A stretch of DNA of 37,595 nt from an uncultured delta proteobacterium. GTDB lineage: Bacteria > Myxococcota_A > Polyangia > Polyangiales > Polyangiaceae. The stretch lies in assembly GCA_903906315.1 (NCBI GenBank), contig CAIVJW010000300.1, positions 1-37,595 of the forward strand, given 5' to 3'. The notes under the pieces were generated by a model, which ran no database searches, was not told where the DNA came from, and was given only the letters and a program-made list of their open reading frames with translations. Both the position numbers and the translations under genes were made by a program. Below, piece by piece: positions 16,293-25,765 of the stretch (position 1 is its first letter; each line of letters opens with the position of its first letter).

Positions 16293-18065
16293 GTGAGCGC
16301 CTCGCAGTACGAGTATCTCGGCGAGATCCTGGTCCGGCGCGGCGTCGTCCCGGCGGAGCGGATGCCCGCCCTGTTCGAGACGGTCCGCGATCGCGGGCAG
16401 GCGCTCACCGACCTCGTGGTCGCGCAGAACATCGCCGACGAGGGGCGCATCGCGCAGGCGCTCGCAGACGAGTGCGGCCTCGGGCTGATGGCGAAGATCG
16501 ACATCGACGCGGTGCCCGCCACCGTCGCGATGCGCATCCCGATCACCTACGCGAAGCAGCACAAGATCCTGCCGCTCTCCGAGGACGACGTCGCCGTCTA
16601 CTGCGTGCTCGCCGACCCGCTCGACACCGTCGCGGTCGACGACGTCCGCACGATCTTCGGCAAGCCCGTCGAGACGGCCGTCGCGACGAGCGAGCTCGTC
16701 CTCAACGCGATCAACCGCGTCTGGGAGAAGCTCGACGGCGGCGGGACGCTCAAGGGCGACCACGCGCTCGAGGAGGACAACCTCGTCGACATCATCGACT
16801 CGGACGACGACGCCCCCATCATCGCGTGGGTCAACGGCCTCTTCGCCCAGGCGGTGCGCGAGCGCGCGAGCGACATCCACATCGAGCCCGAGGAGCGCGA
16901 CGTCGTCGTCCGCTACCGCATCGACGGCGAGCTCTACGTCGCGAAGCGCGCGTCCAAGCAGTTCATGGCGCCGATCATCGCGCGCGTGAAGATCATGGCG
17001 TCGCTCAACATCGCCGAGAAGCGCCTGCCGCAGGACGGCCGCATCACGCTGAAGATCGCCGGCAAGAGCGTCGACATCCGCGTCTCGACGATCCCGACGA
17101 GCCGCGGCTTCGAGCGCATCGTCATGCGCATCCTGCACAAGACGAGCGTCCTCTTCGGCCTCGACGAGCTCGGCTTCGGCCCGCGCGACCTCGGCATCAT
17201 GGATCAGCTGATCCAGAAGCCCGACGGCATCGTGCTCGTCACCGGTCCGACGGGCTCCGGCAAGACGACGACGCTGTACGCGTGCCTCAACAAGATCAAC
17301 GACCCGAGCCGCAACATCCTCACGGCGGAGGATCCGGTCGAGTACGAGATCGGCGGCATCCACCAGGTGCACGTGCACTCGTCGATCGGGCTGACGTTCG
17401 CGAGCGCGCTGCGCGCGTTCCTCCGGCAGGACCCGGACGTCATCATGGTCGGCGAGATCCGTGATCGCGAGACCGCCGAGATCGCGATTCACGCCTCGCT
17501 CACCGGCCATCTGGTGCTCTCGACGATCCACACGAACGATGCCGCCGGCGCCGTCACGCGCCTCGTCGAGATGGAGATCGAGCCCTTCCTCGTCCGATCG
17601 AGCGTCATCGGCATCCTGGCGCAGCGCCTCGTGCGCATGCTCTGCACGTGCAAGATCGCCTACCAGCCGACCGACTACGAGCTCACGCAGCTCGGGCTCG
17701 ATCCGGATCGGCTCGCGCAGAAGGCCCGCCGGCTGGTCTCGCCGCGCTACCAGGTCCACGGGATGAAGTACGAGTTCGTCGGCCAGACGATGCGCGATCC
17801 CGTCTTCTACAAGCCCGGCGGCTGCGAGGCGTGCAACGGCAAGGGCTTCATCGGCCGCCGCGGCATCTACGAGCTCATGGTGATCGACGACGCGATCGGG
17901 CCGCTCATCCTGAAGAGCGCCGACGCCCAGACGATCAAGCGCGTCGCGCAGAATCAGGGCATGGATACCCTGCGAGACGACGGCGCGCGCAAGGTGCTCT
18001 TGGGGATGACGACCGTCGAAGAGGTGCTCGCCGCCTCGCAGGACGACGTCATCGTCGACGACTAG
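16293..18065 (+). CDS. gspE: Type II secretion ATPase GspE
   Basis: A 590-residue cytoplasmic assembly ATPase that powers pseudopilus growth. It starts at GTG 16293, three bases after gspD, with GGAG upstream. The N-terminal domain (1-140) binds GspL in relatives. The catalytic part has Walker A GPTGSGKT at 318-325, the Asp box AEDPVE at 345-350, Walker B GEIRD at 387-391 and the His box TIHTNDA at 411-417. The C-terminal zinc site normally has two CxxC pairs. Here the first is C451-T-C453 (CxC) and the second is C511-C514, with 57 residues between. The shortened first pair is either a variant zinc site or a lost one. All ATPase motifs are intact. Confidence 0.96.
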   Translation: MSASQYEYLGEILVRRGVVPAERMPALFETVRDRGQALTDLVVAQNIADEGRIAQALADECGLGLMAKIDIDAVPATVAMRIPITYAKQHKILPLSEDDVAVYCVLADPLDTVAVDDVRTIFGKPVETAVATSELVLNAINRVWEKLDGGGTLKGDHALEEDNLVDIIDSDDDAPIIAWVNGLFAQAVRERASDIHIEPEERDVVVRYRIDGELYVAKRASKQFMAPIIARVKIMASLNIAEKRLPQDGRITLKIAGKSVDIRVSTIPTSRGFERIVMRILHKTSVLFGLDELGFGPRDLGIMDQLIQKPDGIVLVTGPTGSGKTTTLYACLNKINDPSRNILTAEDPVEYEIGGIHQVHVHSSIGLTFASALRAFLRQDPDVIMVGEIRDRETAEIAIHASLTGHLVLSTIHTNDAAGAVTRLVEMEIEPFLVRSSVIGILAQRLVRMLCTCKIAYQPTDYELTQLGLDPDRLAQKARRLVSPRYQVHGMKYEFVGQTMRDPVFYKPGGCEACNGKGFIGRRGIYELMVIDDAIGPLILKSADAQTIKRVAQNQGMDTLRDDGARKVLLGMTTVEEVLAASQDDVIVDD

Positions 18066-18079
18066 GCCGGGAGGGCACC

Positions 18080-19306
18080 GTGGCAGTCTTCGAGTACCGC
18101 GGCATCCTCATCGGCTCGGGCAAGCCCGTGAAGGGCGTGCGCGACGCCGAGAACGCGAAGGTGCTTCGCGCCGTCCTGCGCAAGGACGGCATCCTGCTGA
18201 CGACGGCTGCCGAGGAGAAGGCGGGGGCCGAGAAGAAGCAGTCCTCGCTGAGCTTCAAGGCGTTCACGGGGCGCCCGTCGACGGCCGACGTCGCGCTCGC
18301 GACCCGTCAGCTCGCGACGCTCATGCGCGCGGGCATCCCGCTGCTCGACTCGCTCAACGCCCTCATCGATCAGGTCGAGAAGGACGGCCTCAAGCGTGCG
18401 CTCACGGCCATCCGCGAGCAGGTCCGTGAAGGCATCAGCTTCGCGAAGGCGCTCGAGCAGCATCCGACGATCTTCCCTCCGCTCTACGTGAACATGGTGC
18501 GCGCGGGCGAGGCGTCCGGCACGCTCGAGGGCGTGCTCGAGCGGCTCACGGACTTCATGGAGTCGCAGGCGCGCCTGCAGGGCAAGGTCGTCGCCGCCAT
18601 GGCGTACCCCGCGCTGATGGTGCTCATCGGCACGACGCTCATCTCCGTGCTGATGGTCGCCGTCGTGCCGAACGTGGTGACGATCTTCCAGTCGATGGAC
18701 CAGGCGCTGCCCTGGTACACCGCGACGCTCATCGCCGTCTCGAACGCGATGTCGAACTACTGGTGGCTCATCCTGCTGGTCATCTTCGCGGCGTCGTGGG
18801 GCTTCCGACGCTGGAAGCGCACGCCGACGGGGCACTTCGCCTGGGACCGGTTCGTGCTCCGCATCCCGGTCGCCGGCAGCCTCGTGCAGATGCTGTCCAT
18901 CGCGCGGTTCGCGCGGACGCTTTCCACGCTGCTCGGCGCGGGCGTCGCCCTGCTGACGGCGATGGACATCGTGCGGAACGTCCTCGGAAATGCGGTGCTC
19001 GAGAAGGTCGTCGTCGAGGCGATCGGGTCCATCCGCGAGGGGCAGAGCATCGCGGAGCCGCTGCGGCGGAGCGGTCGCTTCCCGCCGATGGTGACGCACA
19101 TGATCGCGGTCGGCGAGAAGAGCGGGCAGCTCGAGAAGATGCTCGAGAGCGTCTCGAACGCCTACGACGCAGCCGTCGAGAGCCGCGTGCAGCTGCTGAC
19201 CAGCCTGCTCGAGCCCCTGATGATCGTCCTCATGGGCGGCGCGGTCGGCTTCATCGCGGTGTCGATCCTCATGCCCCTCATCCAGATGTCGAGCTTCGCG
19301 GGCTAG
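18080..19306 (+). CDS. gspF: Type II secretion inner-membrane platform protein GspF
   Basis: A 408-residue polytopic protein at the core of the inner-membrane platform, which couples GspE to pseudopilin insertion. Two repeated cytoplasmic T2SSF domains are present (about 70-192 and 272-394), each with the pattern ARQLATLMRAGIPLLDSL or ARTLSTLLGAGVALLTAM. The TM helices lie at about 171-200, 225-242 and 376-400. The motifs EASGTLEGVLERL (144-156) and EKSGQLEKMLESV (346-358) mark the repeats. GTG 18080 is chosen for the strong GGGAGGG site upstream and because AVFEYRG is the usual GspF beginning; the frame runs open further upstream inside gspE. Spacing to gspE is 14 bases. Confidence 0.96.
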   Translation: MAVFEYRGILIGSGKPVKGVRDAENAKVLRAVLRKDGILLTTAAEEKAGAEKKQSSLSFKAFTGRPSTADVALATRQLATLMRAGIPLLDSLNALIDQVEKDGLKRALTAIREQVREGISFAKALEQHPTIFPPLYVNMVRAGEASGTLEGVLERLTDFMESQARLQGKVVAAMAYPALMVLIGTTLISVLMVAVVPNVVTIFQSMDQALPWYTATLIAVSNAMSNYWWLILLVIFAASWGFRRWKRTPTGHFAWDRFVLRIPVAGSLVQMLSIARFARTLSTLLGAGVALLTAMDIVRNVLGNAVLEKVVVEAIGSIREGQSIAEPLRRSGRFPPMVTHMIAVGEKSGQLEKMLESVSNAYDAAVESRVQLLTSLLEPLMIVLMGGAVGFIAVSILMPLIQMSSFAG

Positions 19307-19402: not shown

Positions 19403-19816
19403 ATGGCGCGGCGCAGGCAGCGGGAGCAGACGATCTTCTTCCCGTGGGAGCGGGGCGGGGGATTCCTGCGTCGAAGCGGGCTCGCGCGCGCCAAGCCCTT
19501 CGTGGCCGCGATCGGGATGGCGTTGCTGTTGCTGCTGCTCGGCAGTCGCGAGCGACGGCAGGCCGGTCTCCGCGCGACGAGGGTGACGCTCGACGTCGTC
19601 CACTCCGGCCTGGACGCCTACCGTGCCGATCACGATCGTCGCTGCCCGGCGGAGCTCACGGAGCTGCGCAGGGATGGCTACCTCGCCGTCGCTCCCATCG
19701 ATGCGTGGGGGCGCCCGCTGCGCCTCGTGTGCCCGGGCCGCAAGGATCCGCAGGGCTATGACCTCTTGAGTGACGGGCCCGACGGCGAGATCGGCGGGCT
19801 GGACCGCGTGGAGTGA
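19403..19816 (+). CDS. GspG-like protein without a prepilin leader
   Basis: A 137-residue protein whose C-terminal half is a major-pseudopilin (GspG) domain. CPAELTELRRDGYL is followed by DAWGRPLRLVC (100-110) and the calcium-loop-like SDGPDGEIGGLD (123-134). C81 and C110 have the same 29-residue spacing as C82 and C111 in the true GspG encoded next. The N terminus differs: a 30-residue basic region precedes an ordinary hydrophobic helix (about 31-47), with no GFTLxE-type peptidase site and no Glu at +5. It should therefore stay as an unprocessed membrane anchor. ATG 19403 has GAGGGG upstream. The 96-base gap after gspF is the largest between gspE and gspN; it holds TTGTGA (19334) and GATACG (19359), a poor promoter candidate. 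Confidence 0.8.
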   Translation: MARRRQREQTIFFPWERGGGFLRRSGLARAKPFVAAIGMALLLLLLGSRERRQAGLRATRVTLDVVHSGLDAYRADHDRRCPAELTELRRDGYLAVAPIDAWGRPLRLVCPGRKDPQGYDLLSDGPDGEIGGLDRVE

Positions 19817-19821
19817 AGGAC

Positions 19822-20292
19822 ATGAACCATTCGTTGACGATTGCGAGGATTCGGGCGGCGCGGCGCGCGGCGGAGCGGGGTGTGACGCTCGTCGAGGTGC
19901 TGATCGTCGTCACGATCATGGCGCTCATCGCGGGCGGCGCGGTGCTGGTCGCGTTCCCGCAGCTGCGCGAGGCGCGGGTCAAGACGGCCATCACGAGCGC
20001 GGGCGCGGTGCGGCAGGCCGCGCAGCTCTACGTCGAGGTCGACATGGCGGGCAACACGGACAAGTGCCCGACGGTCGAGGACCTCGTGGCGTCGAGGAAG
20101 CTCGAGCGCGGCAAGACCGAGGACCCCTGGGGCCGCGGGTTCAAGGTGCTGTGCGTCGACGGCGAGATCCGCGTCCTGTCCCTGGGCGCCGACGGCCGCG
20201 AGGGCACCCCCGACGACGTGCGCGACGACACCTCGCTGAAGGACGTCGCGAAGATCGCGAACGGCGTGCAGTCCCCGGCGGCCGCGAAGTAG
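19822..20292 (+). CDS. gspG: Major pseudopilin GspG
   Basis: A 156-residue type II pseudopilin. The basic leader ends at the prepilin peptidase site G20-V21 (AERG-VTLVEVLIVV), with the conserved Glu at +5 (E25) and the hydrophobic spine 21-44. The globular domain has the GspG hallmark DPWGRGF at 101-107 and an acidic SLGADGREGTPDD loop (120-132) where calcium binds in the family. C82 and C111 are positioned for a disulfide. GTG 19813 is also in frame and overlaps the previous stop, but ATG 19822 has GGAG at eight bases. The product polymerises into the pseudopilus that pushes substrates through GspD. Cleavage needs GspO, which is not encoded in this window. Confidence 0.94.
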   Translation: MNHSLTIARIRAARRAAERGVTLVEVLIVVTIMALIAGGAVLVAFPQLREARVKTAITSAGAVRQAAQLYVEVDMAGNTDKCPTVEDLVASRKLERGKTEDPWGRGFKVLCVDGEIRVLSLGADGREGTPDDVRDDTSLKDVAKIANGVQSPAAAK

Positions 20293-20298
20293 CCGCGC

Positions 20299-21042
20299 AT
20301 GGGCCGTACCCACCAGCGGCCGAGGGGATCTCGACGGGGCGTGACGCTCGTCGAGCTGCTCTTCGTCGTCGGCATCGTCGCGGTGCTGACGGTGGGCGCG
20401 ACCTATGGGTTCTCGGCCATCACGACCGCGCGGCTCCGGCGCGGCGCGGTCATGATCGCGAGCGCGGCGCGGATCGCGTATGCGCACGCCAACGCCACGG
20501 GCAAGACCGTGCGGCTGGTGTTCGACTTCGATCGGAAGCTCGTCGCGCTCGAGGAGGCGAGCGCGATCCTCGCGATGCAGCGCGGCGACCGCACCGGCGG
20601 CGCTCAGGCGGCGACCGAGACCGAGCGGAAGGCCGTCGAGGAGGCCGACAAGATCATGAAGGGGCCGCAGAAGCCCCGCCCCGCGTTCCGTCCGACCAAG
20701 GCCTTCGGCTTCAACGCCGACGCGGGCAAGCCCGGGCGCGAGCTGCCGTCGGGCATCCGGTTCGTTCAGGTCGAGACGGGTCACGACGACCTGCCGTCGA
20801 CGTCGCAGCGCGCGTACCTCTACTTCTGGCCCGGCGGTCAGACCGAGCGCGCCTCCATCCAGCTCACGAAGTCGCGGCTCGATCCGACCGAGAAGGCCGA
20901 GCGCCTCGACGAGCGCGACGTGATGACGATCCTCATCGCGCCGCTCACGGGCAAGGCCGACATCCGCCTCGGCAGGTTCTCGATGCCCCGGCCCCGCGAC
21001 GACCGCGAGGAGTCCGAGCGCGTCGACAGCGGGGGCTTCTGA
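20299..21042 (+). CDS. gspH: Minor pseudopilin GspH
   Basis: A 247-residue type IV-like pseudopilin. The leader ends at G14-V15 (SRRG-VTLVELLFVVG), with Glu at +5 (E19). The globular part opens with RLRRGAVMIASAARIAYAHANATGKTVRLVFDF, the GspH pattern of helix and first strands. It is longer than the usual 150-200 residues because of a charged helical stretch (about 95-140) between strands. It follows gspG by six bases, and its TGA overlaps the gspI ATG. GspH joins GspI, J and K at the pseudopilus tip. Confidence 0.9.
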   Translation: MGRTHQRPRGSRRGVTLVELLFVVGIVAVLTVGATYGFSAITTARLRRGAVMIASAARIAYAHANATGKTVRLVFDFDRKLVALEEASAILAMQRGDRTGGAQAATETERKAVEEADKIMKGPQKPRPAFRPTKAFGFNADAGKPGRELPSGIRFVQVETGHDDLPSTSQRAYLYFWPGGQTERASIQLTKSRLDPTEKAERLDERDVMTILIAPLTGKADIRLGRFSMPRPRDDREESERVDSGGF

Positions 21043-21983
21043 TGGCGCGCGATCGCGGCTTCACGCTGCTCGAGGTCATGGTCGCGGTCGCGATCCTCGG
21101 GCTCGGGCTCACCGCGATCCTGTCGGCGCAGGCGGGGTCGTTCAACGCCTCCCGCCACGCGCGCAACATCAGCGTCGCGACCGGGCTCGCGCGCTGCAAG
21201 ATGAACGAGGTCGAGGAGCAGCTCGCGAAGCTCGGCTACCAGGACCTCGACGTGGTCGACAGCGGCCCGTGCTGCGAGGGCGACACGACCGCGAACGTCC
21301 GGTGCGCGTGGCGCATCGAGAAGCTCACGCTGCCCGATCCGCAGTACGGCAAGCTCGATCTCGCGGCGGCCATCCCCGGGACGATGGGCGCGCCCGGCGC
21401 ACCCGGCGCGGCGCCCGGGGGCGGCATGCTGGGCGGCCTCGGCGGGCTGCTCGGTGGCGCGCCCGGCGGCGCGCAGGGGGGCGGGGCGCTCGGCGGGCTC
21501 GGCGCGATGGGCGGGGCGCTCGGCGGGCTCGGGATGCTCGCGCAGAACAGCCAGCAGCCCGACAGCTCGATGTCGATGTTCCCGCCGGACGCGGGCGTCG
21601 CCGGCATGGCCGATCAGCTGACCGGATCGAGCAACGCCACGGTCAGCGCGGCGGCGTCGATGGGCTTCGGCGGCGCGCTGCAGATGCTGATGGGGATGGT
21701 GTACCCGCAGCTCAAGCGGGTGTTCGAGGTCGGGTCGCGGCGCGTGACGGTCACGCTCACGTGGAGCGAGGGCAAGAAGGAGCACTCGATCGACATCACG
21801 CAGTGGGTGACCGACGGGCGGCAAGCCGGCCTCATCGGCGACATCCCCGGCGCGGACGGCGCGATGCCGGCCGCGAGCGGTAGCGGGGCGGCGCTGCCTG
21901 GATCGCCGGCCCTCGGCGGCGGCACCGGCACGGGCACGGGCACGGGCACGGGCACGGGCAGCAGCGGCGGGACGACGCGATGA
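21042..21983 (+). CDS. gspI: Minor pseudopilin GspI with a large Gly-rich insertion
   Basis: A 313-residue pseudopilin, more than twice the usual 120-130. The leader is minimal, with cleavage at G6-F7 (RDRG-FTLLEVMVAVAILG) and Glu at +5 (E11). The helix runs on to about residue 65. The small beta domain appears split: WRIEKLTLPDP (90-100) is separated from RRVTVTLTWSEGKKEH (233-248) by about 130 residues, of which 112-167 are Gly/Ala/Leu/Met repeats. A second low-complexity tail (272-313) ends in a Gly-Thr repeat. C77, C78 and C88 cluster before the insertion. Stop and start overlap with gspJ (ATGA). GspI nucleates the pseudopilus tip in characterised systems; how the insertion is accommodated is unknown. 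Confidence 0.92.
   Translation: MARDRGFTLLEVMVAVAILGLGLTAILSAQAGSFNASRHARNISVATGLARCKMNEVEEQLAKLGYQDLDVVDSGPCCEGDTTANVRCAWRIEKLTLPDPQYGKLDLAAAIPGTMGAPGAPGAAPGGGMLGGLGGLLGGAPGGAQGGGALGGLGAMGGALGGLGMLAQNSQQPDSSMSMFPPDAGVAGMADQLTGSSNATVSAAASMGFGGALQMLMGMVYPQLKRVFEVGSRRVTVTLTWSEGKKEHSIDITQWVTDGRQAGLIGDIPGADGAMPAASGSGAALPGSPALGGGTGTGTGTGTGTGSSGGTTR
21481..21532 (+). repeat. 22-bp perfect direct repeat inside gspI
   Basis: The same 22 bases occur at 21481-21502 and 21511-21532, a 30-bp period. They lie in the region that encodes the Gly-rich insertion (GGALGGLG units). The period is a multiple of three, so copy-number change would keep the frame. Confidence 0.8.
21921..21962 (+). repeat. Hexanucleotide tandem repeat at the 3' end of gspI
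   Basis: Seven consecutive units based on GGCACG (the first ends ACC, the last AGC) encode alternating Gly and Thr near the C terminus. A run this regular is prone to slippage. Each gain or loss changes the protein by two residues without a frameshift, and the run ends 18 bases before the overlapping gspJ start. Confidence 0.85.
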
Positions 21984-22669: not shown

Positions 22670-24135
22670 CGATGCGCGAGCGAACGACCCCCCCGAACCC
22701 CGCGCTCCGACGGCGCCGCATCCGGCGGCGAGCCGAGCGTCGCGGCGTCGCGCTCATCATGGTGCTCGCGGCGATCACCGTCCTCACGGTGTTCCTCACG
22801 GAGCTGCAGGACGACACGTCCGCGGAGCTGTCCTCGGCGCTGGCCGAGCGCGACACGATGCGCGCGGAGTACCACGCCCGGAGCGCGATCAACCTGTCGC
22901 GGCTGCTCATCGCGACCGAGCCGGGCATCAAGCGCGCGCTCGGGCCGCTGCTCGGGATGCTCGGCGTCGGCAAGATGCAGCTGCCGGTGTGGGAGTTCGC
23001 CGACGTGGTGCTCGGGCCGTTCAACGATTCGGCGGGCGTGCGAGGGTTCGCCGGCATCGCGAACCTCGACATGACGACGGCGAAGAACCTCGGATCGACG
23101 GGCAGCGGGCGCTTCGAGCTCGTGATCGTCGACGAGGACTCGAAGATCAACGTCAACGCGGCGGCGCGCAACGAGGTGATGTCCAAGCAGCGGCTCGCGG
23201 GCCAGCTCATGGGCATGTTCACGCCGCAGCAGTACGCGCCGCTCTTCGATGGCCGCGACTCGGACGGTCAGTTCTCCGATCGGCAGACGGTGTGCGGCGC
23301 GATCATCGATTTTGCCGACGCGGAGCCGGATGGTAACGAGCAGGCGACGATGTGCGATCTCCGGCCGAGCGCGCCTGCGTCGAGCGCCGCGGAGGACAGC
23401 TTCTACCAGATGCTGCAGGTCGACTACCGGCGCAAGAACGCGGCGTTCGACTCGCTCGAGGAGCTCCGGCTCGTCCGCGGCCTCGGCAGCGACGAGATGT
23501 GGTCGACCTTCGTCGACCCGGACCCGGCCGATCCGCGCAAGCGCATCCTGACCGTGTGGGGGCAGGGCAAGATCAACATCGGCACCGCGAACGCGCAGAC
23601 GCTGCTCGCGGTCATCTGCGGCGCCGACCGGACCACCGCCGAGACGGACCTCTGCGCCGACCCGAACCAGCTCGCCTCGTTCATCATGGCCGTGTCGATG
23701 GTCAAGAGCCTGTTCCCCGGGATCCCCATCTTCCCGACGCCGCAGGAGTTCCTCAAGACGCTGAACGGGCAGGGCCTGTTCGGGCCGATCCTCTCGGGGC
23801 TCGGCGTCAAGCCGGTCGGGTTCAAGGCGCCCACCGAGGTCACGAAGAACCTCGCGAACGGCAGCAAGCTGTTCAGCATCTACGCCACCGGCGTCGTGCC
23901 CGGAAACCGGCGCGAGCTGCGGGTGCGCGTGCACTCGGTCATCGACTTCCGCGGCGTGGCGGACCTCGGCGCCGGCCTGCCGGGGTCGCAGGGCGCGTCG
24001 GGTGCCGCAAGCAACGCGGCCGGGGGCGTGCCGCCGATGCAGGACGCTTCGGGGGCGTCGCTCACGCCCGAGCAGATCATGGCGGCGATGGCCACCAACC
24101 CGATGGGCCGGGTCGTCTACTGGCGCGTCGAGTAA
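22666..24135 (+). CDS. gspK: Pseudopilus tip protein GspK
   Basis: A 489-residue protein, longer than most GspK (about 320-400). A very basic 27-residue leader precedes the cleavage site G27-V28 (ERRG-VALIMVLAAITVL). As usual for GspK there is no Glu at +5, which fits a place at the very tip. IVDEDSKINVNAA (about 154-166) and the helical domain DSLEELRLVRGLGSDEM are GspK landmarks, followed by GKINIGTANAQTLLAVICG. Several cysteines (for example C216, C236, C330 and C341) may form disulfides in the exported domain. ATG 22666 overlaps the gspJ stop; ATG 22672 is an alternative. The C-terminal 60 residues are low complexity and then a conserved-looking end (GRVVYWRVE). Confidence 0.92.
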   Translation: MTMRERTTPPNPALRRRRIRRRAERRGVALIMVLAAITVLTVFLTELQDDTSAELSSALAERDTMRAEYHARSAINLSRLLIATEPGIKRALGPLLGMLGVGKMQLPVWEFADVVLGPFNDSAGVRGFAGIANLDMTTAKNLGSTGSGRFELVIVDEDSKINVNAAARNEVMSKQRLAGQLMGMFTPQQYAPLFDGRDSDGQFSDRQTVCGAIIDFADAEPDGNEQATMCDLRPSAPASSAAEDSFYQMLQVDYRRKNAAFDSLEELRLVRGLGSDEMWSTFVDPDPADPRKRILTVWGQGKINIGTANAQTLLAVICGADRTTAETDLCADPNQLASFIMAVSMVKSLFPGIPIFPTPQEFLKTLNGQGLFGPILSGLGVKPVGFKAPTEVTKNLANGSKLFSIYATGVVPGNRRELRVRVHSVIDFRGVADLGAGLPGSQGASGAASNAAGGVPPMQDASGASLTPEQIMAAMATNPMGRVVYWRVE

Positions 24136-24157
24136 GTTCGCAAGAGAGGGTCAGGGA

Positions 24158-25765
24158 ATGGCGAGGCTTCTGGGGATCGATGCGGGTCGGACGGTCGTGC
24201 GGACGGTGCTCGTGCGCACGTCGTATCGGCACGTCGCCATCGAGGCGTTCGGCGAGGTGCCGGTCGCGCCGATCGCCGGGCCGGTCGACGGCCTGCCCGA
24301 GGCCGAGCTCCACGAGGCGCAGCGCAAGCGGCAAGCGGCGGCCGAGGTCGAGGCGATCCGCGCCGCGCTGGGCGGGCAGAAGGCCGACGCGGTGTCCGTC
24401 GCGCTGTCGGGCGAGCGCACGTTCTTCCGGCGGCTGGAGCTGCCGGCGGCCGCGCAGAAGGAGCTCGAGAACGTCCTCGGCTTCGAGCTCGAGGCGACCG
24501 TGCCCTTCGACATGGCGGACGCGACGTACGACTACCGCATCCTGCGGCGGGCCCCGGGCGACGCCGCCGCGCTGCCGATCTTCGCGGCGCTCGCGCGGAC
24601 CGACGACGTGCGCGACCGCATCGCCGTGGTGCGCGACGCGGTCGGCTTCGAGCCGGAGCGCGTCGGCACGGGCGCGTTGCCGCTCGTCAACCTGACGACG
24701 GTGATGCCCGAGCTCGAGACGCCGTGGAAGGGCGCGGCGGTGCCCGGTGCGCCGCCGCCCGCGGCCGGGCCGGTCGCGATCCTCGAGCTCGCCGAGACGA
24801 CGACGGACATCGTCATCGTGCAGGGGGGCGAGGCCGTCTTCGCGCGCACGCTCTCGCGCGGCACCGTCGGCCTGCCGGCGTCCGCGCCGACCCTCGGCCG
24901 CGAGCTCCGCCAGACGTTCGCGGGGTGGCGGGCGCAGGGCGGCGAGCCGCTGTCGGCGCTGTGGCTCGCGGGGGCCGGCGCCGCGGCTCCGGGCGCCGCG
25001 CATTTCTTGTCGACCGAGCTCGGCGTCGCGGTGCTCCCGCTGCCCGCGCCGCGCGTCGACGGCGTCACGCCCGAGCTCGCGGCTTCGCTGCCGCGCTTCG
25101 CGAAGGCGCTCGGCCTCGCGGTCGGCCTCGCCGGGCGCCCGCGCACGTTCAACCTGCGGCGCGGCGGGCTCGAGGCCGAGCGGCGCTACCCGTTCCTGCG
25201 CGAGAAGATCCCGCTGCTCTCGGGGCTCGCCGCCGTCATCGTGGTGAGCTTCGGCTTCTCGATCGTGGCAGAGAGCCGCGCGCTCGAGTCGGAGCGCGAC
25301 GTGATCGAGGCGCGGCTCGCGCAGGTCACGCGCGACGTGCTCGGCGAGGAGACGAGCGACCCGGATCGCGCTCGCGAGCTGCTCGAGAAGGGGCCGGGCG
25401 CCGACGAGGACCCGCTCCCGCGCGCCGACGCCTTCGACGTGATGGTGCAGCTCTCGAAGGCGGTGCCGAAGGACGTCGTGCACGATGTCGTCGAGCTCGA
25501 CGTCGCGCGAGGGCACGTCGTCGTCCAGGGCCTCGTGCCGACCAACCGCGACGCCGAGCACATCGCCGAGAAGCTGAAGGAGCACCGCTGCTTTCGGGAC
25601 GTGAAGATCCCGCGCACGACGCAGTTCGCCGAGGGCAAGCAGAAGTACGTGCTCGAGTTCGAGATCAAGTGCGAAGAGAAGAAGAAGAAGGCCGACGCCG
25701 CCGACTCCGCCGCGCCGGCCGCGGGATCGGCGCCGAAGCCCGAAGCCAAGCCGGAGGGTCGCTGA
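24158..25765 (+). CDS. gspL: Type II secretion platform protein GspL
   Basis: A 535-residue bitopic protein. The cytoplasmic part (1-345) is an actin-like (PilM-type) fold that begins with LLGIDAGRTVVRTVLV, with a second phosphate-loop-like strand at AILELAETTTDIVIVQGG (207-224). It recruits the ATPase GspE. A single TM helix follows at about 351-371. The periplasmic ferredoxin-like domain is at about 424-505 (FDVMVQLSKAVPKDVVHDVVELDV). A Lys-rich then Ala/Pro tail (506-535) is not typical. The gene is 22 bases after gspK. Its TGA is one base before the gspM ATG. Domain order makes GspL clear despite low conservation in the family. Confidence 0.9.
   Translation: MARLLGIDAGRTVVRTVLVRTSYRHVAIEAFGEVPVAPIAGPVDGLPEAELHEAQRKRQAAAEVEAIRAALGGQKADAVSVALSGERTFFRRLELPAAAQKELENVLGFELEATVPFDMADATYDYRILRRAPGDAAALPIFAALARTDDVRDRIAVVRDAVGFEPERVGTGALPLVNLTTVMPELETPWKGAAVPGAPPPAAGPVAILELAETTTDIVIVQGGEAVFARTLSRGTVGLPASAPTLGRELRQTFAGWRAQGGEPLSALWLAGAGAAAPGAAHFLSTELGVAVLPLPAPRVDGVTPELAASLPRFAKALGLAVGLAGRPRTFNLRRGGLEAERRYPFLREKIPLLSGLAAVIVVSFGFSIVAESRALESERDVIEARLAQVTRDVLGEETSDPDRARELLEKGPGADEDPLPRADAFDVMVQLSKAVPKDVVHDVVELDVARGHVVVQGLVPTNRDAEHIAEKLKEHRCFRDVKIPRTTQFAEGKQKYVLEFEIKCEEKKKKADAADSAAPAAGSAPKPEAKPEGR

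Follow-up and report, generated by a model that had tools for sequence, protein, structure and literature searches.

The question raised by the locus

The DNA analysed here, referred to below as the window, is a stretch of 37,595 nucleotides from an uncultured delta proteobacterium of the order Polyangiales, class Polyangia. Its T2SS operon holds two GspG-like genes in tandem. The second encodes a leader-bearing GspG, the major pseudopilin; the first, called X here, encodes a protein with a GspG-like head and no prepilin leader. How pseudopilins pass from the membrane into the growing pseudopilus has long been an open question in T2SS research. A first-pass annotation of the window had held that X cannot be processed by GspO, and the absence of a leader from its sequence indicates that it should indeed not be. 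What, then, is this protein, and what might it do beside the pseudopilus? The features on which the argument turns are the following, all on the + strand.

18065..19306, +: gspF, polytopic inner-membrane T2SS protein, directly upstream of X (TIGR02120 at 469.5 bits against a cut-off of 424; T2SSF match)
19403..19816, +: X, leaderless, membrane-anchored GspG paralogue of 137 aa (T2SSG match, PF08334; AlphaFold2 model with PDB matches to GspG; conserved gspF-X-gspG order)
19430..19456, +: putative cytoplasmic motif of X, residues 10-18, T-I-F-F-P-W-E-R-G (W15 in 25/25 and P14 and E16 in 96% of the 25-sequence alignment A1; genome census)
19490..19546, +: transmembrane segment of X, residues 30-48, poorly conserved (mean hydropathy 1.91 over 19 residues; highest entropy among the segments compared, at residues 31-47)
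19571..19582, +: juxtamembrane patch of X, R57-x-T59-R60 (conserved in X of the order, not in GspG)
19631..19813, +: GspG-like head of X, residues 77-137, with C81, D100-A-W-G and C110-P-G (pLDDT about 86-92; match to 3fu1_B over residues 49-137)
19822..20292, +: gspG, leader-bearing major pseudopilin (N_methyl and T2SSG over cut-off; sequence)
20299..21042, +: gspH, minor pseudopilin, next downstream of gspG (N_methyl; GspH and XpsH matches below cut-off)

The frame of X translates without an internal stop and lies 96 nt downstream of gspF within the operon. For gspG there is an alternative start at GTG 19813; the likelier start is ATG 19822, 5 nt past the X stop, which gives the numbering C82/C111 for the GspG cysteines.

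A GspG relative without a prepilin leader

The Pfam T2SSG model matches X with 33.2 bits against a gathering cut-off of 21, and the window GspG with 23.2 bits in addition to its leader-model match. The leader of GspG reads R-G-V-T-L-V-E and lies over the cut-off of N_methyl (PF07963). The same Pfam scan gave no N_methyl match in X, no leader was found in any of the three frames upstream of it, and X has neither the Gly-1 nor the Glu+5 of a class III signal. These features extend to its relatives: in the set of 53 formed by the window X and its 52 named-locus relatives, every member has a T2SSG match and none a listed N_methyl match at E 0.01. X matched only T2SSG and TIGR01710, so that an identity as one of the minor pseudopilins GspH, I, J or K found no backing among the profiles. 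By its profile matches X thus belongs to the T2SSG domain family; with no leader, it is filed outside the GspG pseudopilins. Pairwise comparison with the window GspG is weak by itself (BLAST E 0.013 over 37 residues); the relationship is drawn from the family, profile and fold evidence taken together.

TIGR01710, with a cut-off of 88.85, scores X at 30.1 and the window GspG at 33.9 bits, both so far under the cut-off that the model cannot separate them. A whole-genome search with PF08334 listed X, and not GspG (window 19813-20292). Given this low score and this listing, automatic naming may confuse the two proteins.

The first-pass annotation had described X as a leaderless GspG paralogue beside a true GspG, sharing with it a DxWGR motif and two cysteines 29 residues apart, and this description holds. 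X has D-A-W-G-R at residues 100-104 and the pair C81/C110, and GspG has D-P-W-G-R and a cysteine pair of equal spacing. The acidic calcium-loop-like segment, also said to be shared, fares less well. D-D-N occurs in part of the X family, whereas the D-D that is invariant in GspG of the order is absent from the window X, which ends G-E-I-G-G-L-D-R-V-E; a complete calcium site in the window protein is therefore doubtful. The basic 30-residue tail and plain hydrophobic helix are both borne out, with the addition that the tail carries a conserved P-W-E. Residues 1-31, before the membrane helix, include 9 basic and 2 acidic residues, and by the positive-inside rule this suggests that the N-terminus of X remains in the cytoplasm.

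The fold predicted for X is that of GspG. An AlphaFold2 model built from 53 sequences (mean pLDDT 84.6, pTM 0.65) shows one continuous 50-residue helix, residues 27-76, and a head modelled with confidence; for the first 30 residues confidence is low (pLDDT about 60). The best Foldseek match is to the GspG structure 3g20_A (E 8.7e-4), and a second structure comparison aligned the model with the GspG 3fu1_B (Z 11.4, rmsd 1.7, 87 residues aligned) and with the PulG pseudopilus 5wda (Z 10.0, rmsd 5.1, 111 aligned). The closest solved folds are GspGs, and no archaellin is among the matches listed. Because the best structure matches are GspGs, the model indicates that X is a pilin-like lollipop in which the first residues have been exchanged.

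Occurrence within the order

A search with X found a match in 170 of the 183 genomes of the order, although some of these matches may be GspG. Gene order was inspected in 95 of the 183, which were picked from protein hits and not at random. X is present in 93 of these 95 and lies between gspF and gspG in 90, so that the two-gene arrangement recurs in related operons; absence of the gene from all related operons, likewise looked for, did not hold. The 95 comprise two sets. In the first (47 genomes) the leaderless copy has gspF upstream and a leader-bearing GspG downstream in every case. In the second, of 48 genomes checked by hand, X was found in 46, with gspF upstream in 44 of the 46 and GspG downstream in 43. 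The exceptions are loci L209 and L135, where neither gspF nor gspG was found beside X, and L131, where gspG was not. The three genomes concerned are G171, where gspF adjoins X and no neighbouring gspG was seen, and G088 (L209) and G172 (L135). In the last two X carries P-W-E, neither gspF nor gspG was recognised in the surrounding stretch, and the gspF of the genome is located on a different contig.

Two genomes of the second set gave no X. One, G115, showed only a GspG-like gene, in a locus that was centred on that gene. In the other, G023 (L137), which is 99% complete, gspF is followed directly by gspG, and the absence of X is a real loss. X is therefore not indispensable. Among the 13 genomes of the order with no hit to X, a GspF search matched three at 49-53% identity: G019 and G037, whose gspF runs off the end of the contig, and G023, described above. 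The other ten say little about X, since they gave either matches of only 33-43% identity (eight genomes), which are read as the pilus paralogue PilC, or no gspF match at E 1e-40 (G001 and G127).

Presence in 93 of 95 genomes rules out chance or sequencing error as the source of X. A frameshift or start-site artefact is ruled out by the conservation of the gene in relatives together with the leaderless upstream frames; the first-pass annotation had allowed that an upstream frameshift might restore a leader, and a search of the three frames did not bear this out.

Among the named organisms that carry X are four Sorangium cellulosum strains, at 73-75% identity, as well as Minicystis rosea (72%) and Polyangium fumosum (70%). 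The named set comprises 52 loci, two of an initial 54 (L115, a leader-bearing GspG, and L116) having been left out as Planctomycetota. Because it overlaps other genomes and was found partly via an F-P-W-E pattern, its motif count of 51/52 is biased. L178 is a GspG and is not counted as X, L218 and L227 are counted with X, the arbitrary stretch L048 was dropped, and L032 and L033 duplicate L003 and L009. No match for X was found on plasmids. In one genome (G104, locus L218) X, GspG and GspH lie in a single uninterrupted frame of 546 codons from position 2005, which is either a natural fusion or an error of the draft assembly.

Leaderless copies outside the order and their origin

Inspection was extended to 40 genomes that belong to the class but not to the order and that gave a GspG-like hit; 52 of the 317 genomes searched gave none. 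A leaderless copy was found in 17 of the 40 and a single leader-bearing GspG in 23; in each of three loci from other classes there is one GspG, with a leader. Fifteen of the 17 copies stand between gspF and gspG, in families f13, f14 and f26 and one genome of f18, and in the other two genomes (G208, locus L126; G312, locus L160) the leaderless copy follows gspG instead of preceding it. P-W-E is absent from 16 of the 17. The exception is the f18 genome G210 (L127), and this may be a stray contig in a draft genome, since its length is only 3,075 bases and the X and GspG that it carries both cluster with the window's family. The other copies have different basic tails, often with a hydrophobic-L-x-G stretch as judged by eye. 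The f14 copies at L124, L165 and L167 are without both of the otherwise nearly invariant cysteines.

A tree of the head domains, in which 88 columns are few for 66 rows, places X of the order with the copies of f26 and f13 in one clade (89/81). The f14 copies fell outside this clade in one tree; grouping them with it, which gives a single origin to all 26 copies in the tree that lie between gspF and gspG, was not rejected (p-AU 0.317). Placing the G208 copy in the X clade was rejected (p-AU 0.001), and this copy is sister to the GspG of its own genome (100/88); for the G312 copy the corresponding p-AU is 0.284. The groups used in these topology tests were named after a tree had been seen. With the G208 copy placed apart, the tree and the test results appear to be fitted best by one old duplication and at least one independent later origin of a leaderless copy.

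In L116, a Planctomycetota MAG, a leaderless membrane protein with a GspG-like head is found around positions 2248-2994. Like X it combines a membrane helix with such a head and has no prepilin leader; unlike X it has no P-W-E, and none of the six ORFs listed in its surroundings was recognisable by eye as a T2SS gene.

A proposed role at the foot of the pseudopilus

The reading preferred here, to which a probability of about one half is attached, is that X is a GspG duplicate which has ceased to be a filament subunit and become a permanent inner-membrane component of the T2SS. Its N-terminus would stay in the cytoplasm, where the P-W-E tail would dock on a cytoplasmic part of the assembly platform (GspL, GspE or GspF). 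The head would lie in the periplasm, kept at the foot of the pseudopilus and imitating a GspG subunit, and might act as seat or stator for subunits on their way in or out. The first-pass annotation had offered nucleator, cap or brake; the choice between a seat or stator and a brake is likewise a matter of inference, and a cap at the tip of the filament seems the least probable, since the usual way out of the membrane is closed to X.

X seems to be an addition to the T2SS. In four loci without X, gspD-H and gspJ-L were found in all, and for this reason X is not regarded as a substitute for any of these genes; a role as replacement of a missing T2SS gene is unlikely. At the threshold used, gspC was not found in two of the four loci, gspM in three and gspN in one, and gspI lay outside the comparison. 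The gspI query used (21342-21983) lacks the beginning of the gene.

Docking through the tail would agree with the pattern of conservation. P-W-E is exact in 86 of the 93 X-bearing genomes of the order, and four more keep the tryptophan with one neighbour changed (P-W-Q, S-W-E twice, A-W-E), so that W is kept in 90; G063, G065 and G066 are without the motif. Entropy in X is 1.14 bits over the motif (residues 11-18), 2.19 over residues 19-30 and 2.29, the highest value, over the membrane segment (31-47). GspG shows the reverse, with its most conserved parts around the leader cut (0.53 bits, positions -1 to +7) and in the membrane helix (1.04), the very segment which in X is conserved least. Such variability would be expected if the helix of X no longer packs in a filament. 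It also bears on whether X might be an unusual minor pseudopilin, entering the pseudopilus unprocessed or through an unknown peptidase. A full 50-residue helix is retained, and continuous in the model, as that explanation would have it; yet Gly-1 and Glu+5 are missing, and the hydrophobic helix, described in PMC4471445 as the main assembly interface in filament subunits, is here the least conserved segment. That X is such a pseudopilin is very unlikely.

The head has kept much that is common to GspG. C-P, D-x-W, C and S-x-G are found in both proteins, while R57, T59, R60 and R74 set X of the order apart, being conserved there and not in GspG. Both cysteines are present in 100% of 29 X and 25 GspG sequences of the order and in 95-100% of 19 single GspGs of the class; being near-invariant there too, the pair is inherited and not specific to X. 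After the second cysteine X keeps the C-P-G of the single GspGs of the class (P 95%, G 95%), whereas GspG of the order most often has E after the cysteine. That the anchored head might instead bind certain exoproteins, as a substrate adaptor outside filament assembly, would suit a lineage-specific addition to an otherwise ordinary T2SS operon. So many conserved head positions are common to GspG, however, and the cytoplasmic motif is left so far unexplained, that an adaptor is very unlikely.

A brake or length limiter is the main rival to a seat or stator. The anchored head would join the base of the pseudopilus, could not be extracted and would stop polymerisation. A GspG-like head on a long helix, as modelled, with no usual way out of the membrane would suit such a device, as would the gap of only 5 nt before the gspG ATG; the loss of X in one lineage is what might befall a regulator. 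The rates of change point the other way. By best-segment identity, X lies closer to its window counterpart than GspG does in 32 of 46 loci, with medians of 57.7% for X and 47.3% for GspG (Wilcoxon p 4e-6, the loci not being independent). The comparison was split by the identity of gspF, since a split by that of X would introduce bias. Where gspF is at least 62% identical to that of the window, X is the better conserved in 31 of 32 loci (medians 62 and 49%); below 62% this holds for only 1 of 14 (medians 37 and 40%). Judged from these identities, X is better conserved than GspG within its own family and near relatives, and not across the order. Such constancy in the closer loci, together with presence in 93 of 95 genomes, is unexpected for an accessory brake, and a brake alone does not explain the conserved P-W-E tail. 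This explanation is accordingly rather unlikely.

A partner for the tail was sought among T2SS positions that change where P-W-E is lost, and no clear candidate emerged. One more specific version of the docking proposal, which overlaps with it, is that X mimics PilN of type IV pili, its tail docking on the PilM-like cytoplasmic domain of GspL and thereby tethering the GspG-like head. Both proteins carry, as judged by eye, a short hydrophobic-Pro-basic motif on the cytoplasmic side, followed by a single membrane helix; the PilN encoded in this genome starts V(M)-I-R-V-N-L-L-P-Q-K-R, and X has T-I-F-F-P-W-E-R. This likeness of short motifs is without statistical support, however, the periplasmic domain of PilN is different, and no match to the PilN domain PF05137 is listed in X at E up to 1. 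Moreover, the window GspL has a linker of its own that could fill such a groove. Mimicry of PilN in this precise form is unlikely. The GspL linker in question (GspL at window 24002-25765), F-N-L-R-R-G before the membrane helix, itself recalls the PilN start, and stretches like it were seen in some X-bearing relatives with or without P-W-E and in one locus without X.

Parallels in other systems

Set beside the GspGs known as PulG, EpsG and XcpT, X resembles them in its T2SSG head, long helix, operon neighbourhood and class-typical cysteine pair. It differs in having no class III leader or Glu+5, a conserved cytoplasmic tail, an unconserved membrane helix and a shortened C-terminal calcium loop. 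Paired GspGs have a precedent in the mitochondrial T2SS of some protists, where a second GspG paralogue stands beside GspG; according to PMC8134430, the eukaryotic GspGs, unlike X, keep all maturation features including Glu+5.

For the docked seat or stator the nearest parallel in working is the archaellum. According to PMC8667602, the archaeal proteins ArlF and ArlG, for which a stator role is proposed, derive from a duplicated filament subunit. Like X, they are filament-subunit duplicates kept in the operon, with an N-terminal membrane helix and a proposed static role (PMC8667602). Their fold is an archaellin beta-sandwich and not that of GspG, so the comparison concerns how they work and claims no homology; ArlG further differs from X, being cleaved by an unidentified protease and forming a filament of its own. 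The fuller proposition, that X is a dedicated stator or seat derived from a duplicated piston subunit, a non-polymerising GspG tethered through its P-W-E tail which constitutes a bacterial parallel to ArlF and ArlG, with at least one further leaderless copy of independent origin in the class, is put forward tentatively, as having some chance of holding in full. A literature search on pseudopilin and GspG paralogues, Myxococcota, Sorangium and uncleaved pilin-like proteins, which covered few subscription journals, found no description of X.

Implications for the T2SS

The distribution of the gene supplies natural controls: operons with X and the motif, with X and no motif, with no X, and with leaderless copies after gspG. 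If the preferred reading is true, a non-polymerising GspG fixed next to the platform would offer a natural means of studying how subunits are handed over, as a frozen subunit with partners that could be trapped. It would also mean that the conversion of a filament subunit into a static part of the machine, as proposed for the archaellum, has occurred in bacterial secretion as well.
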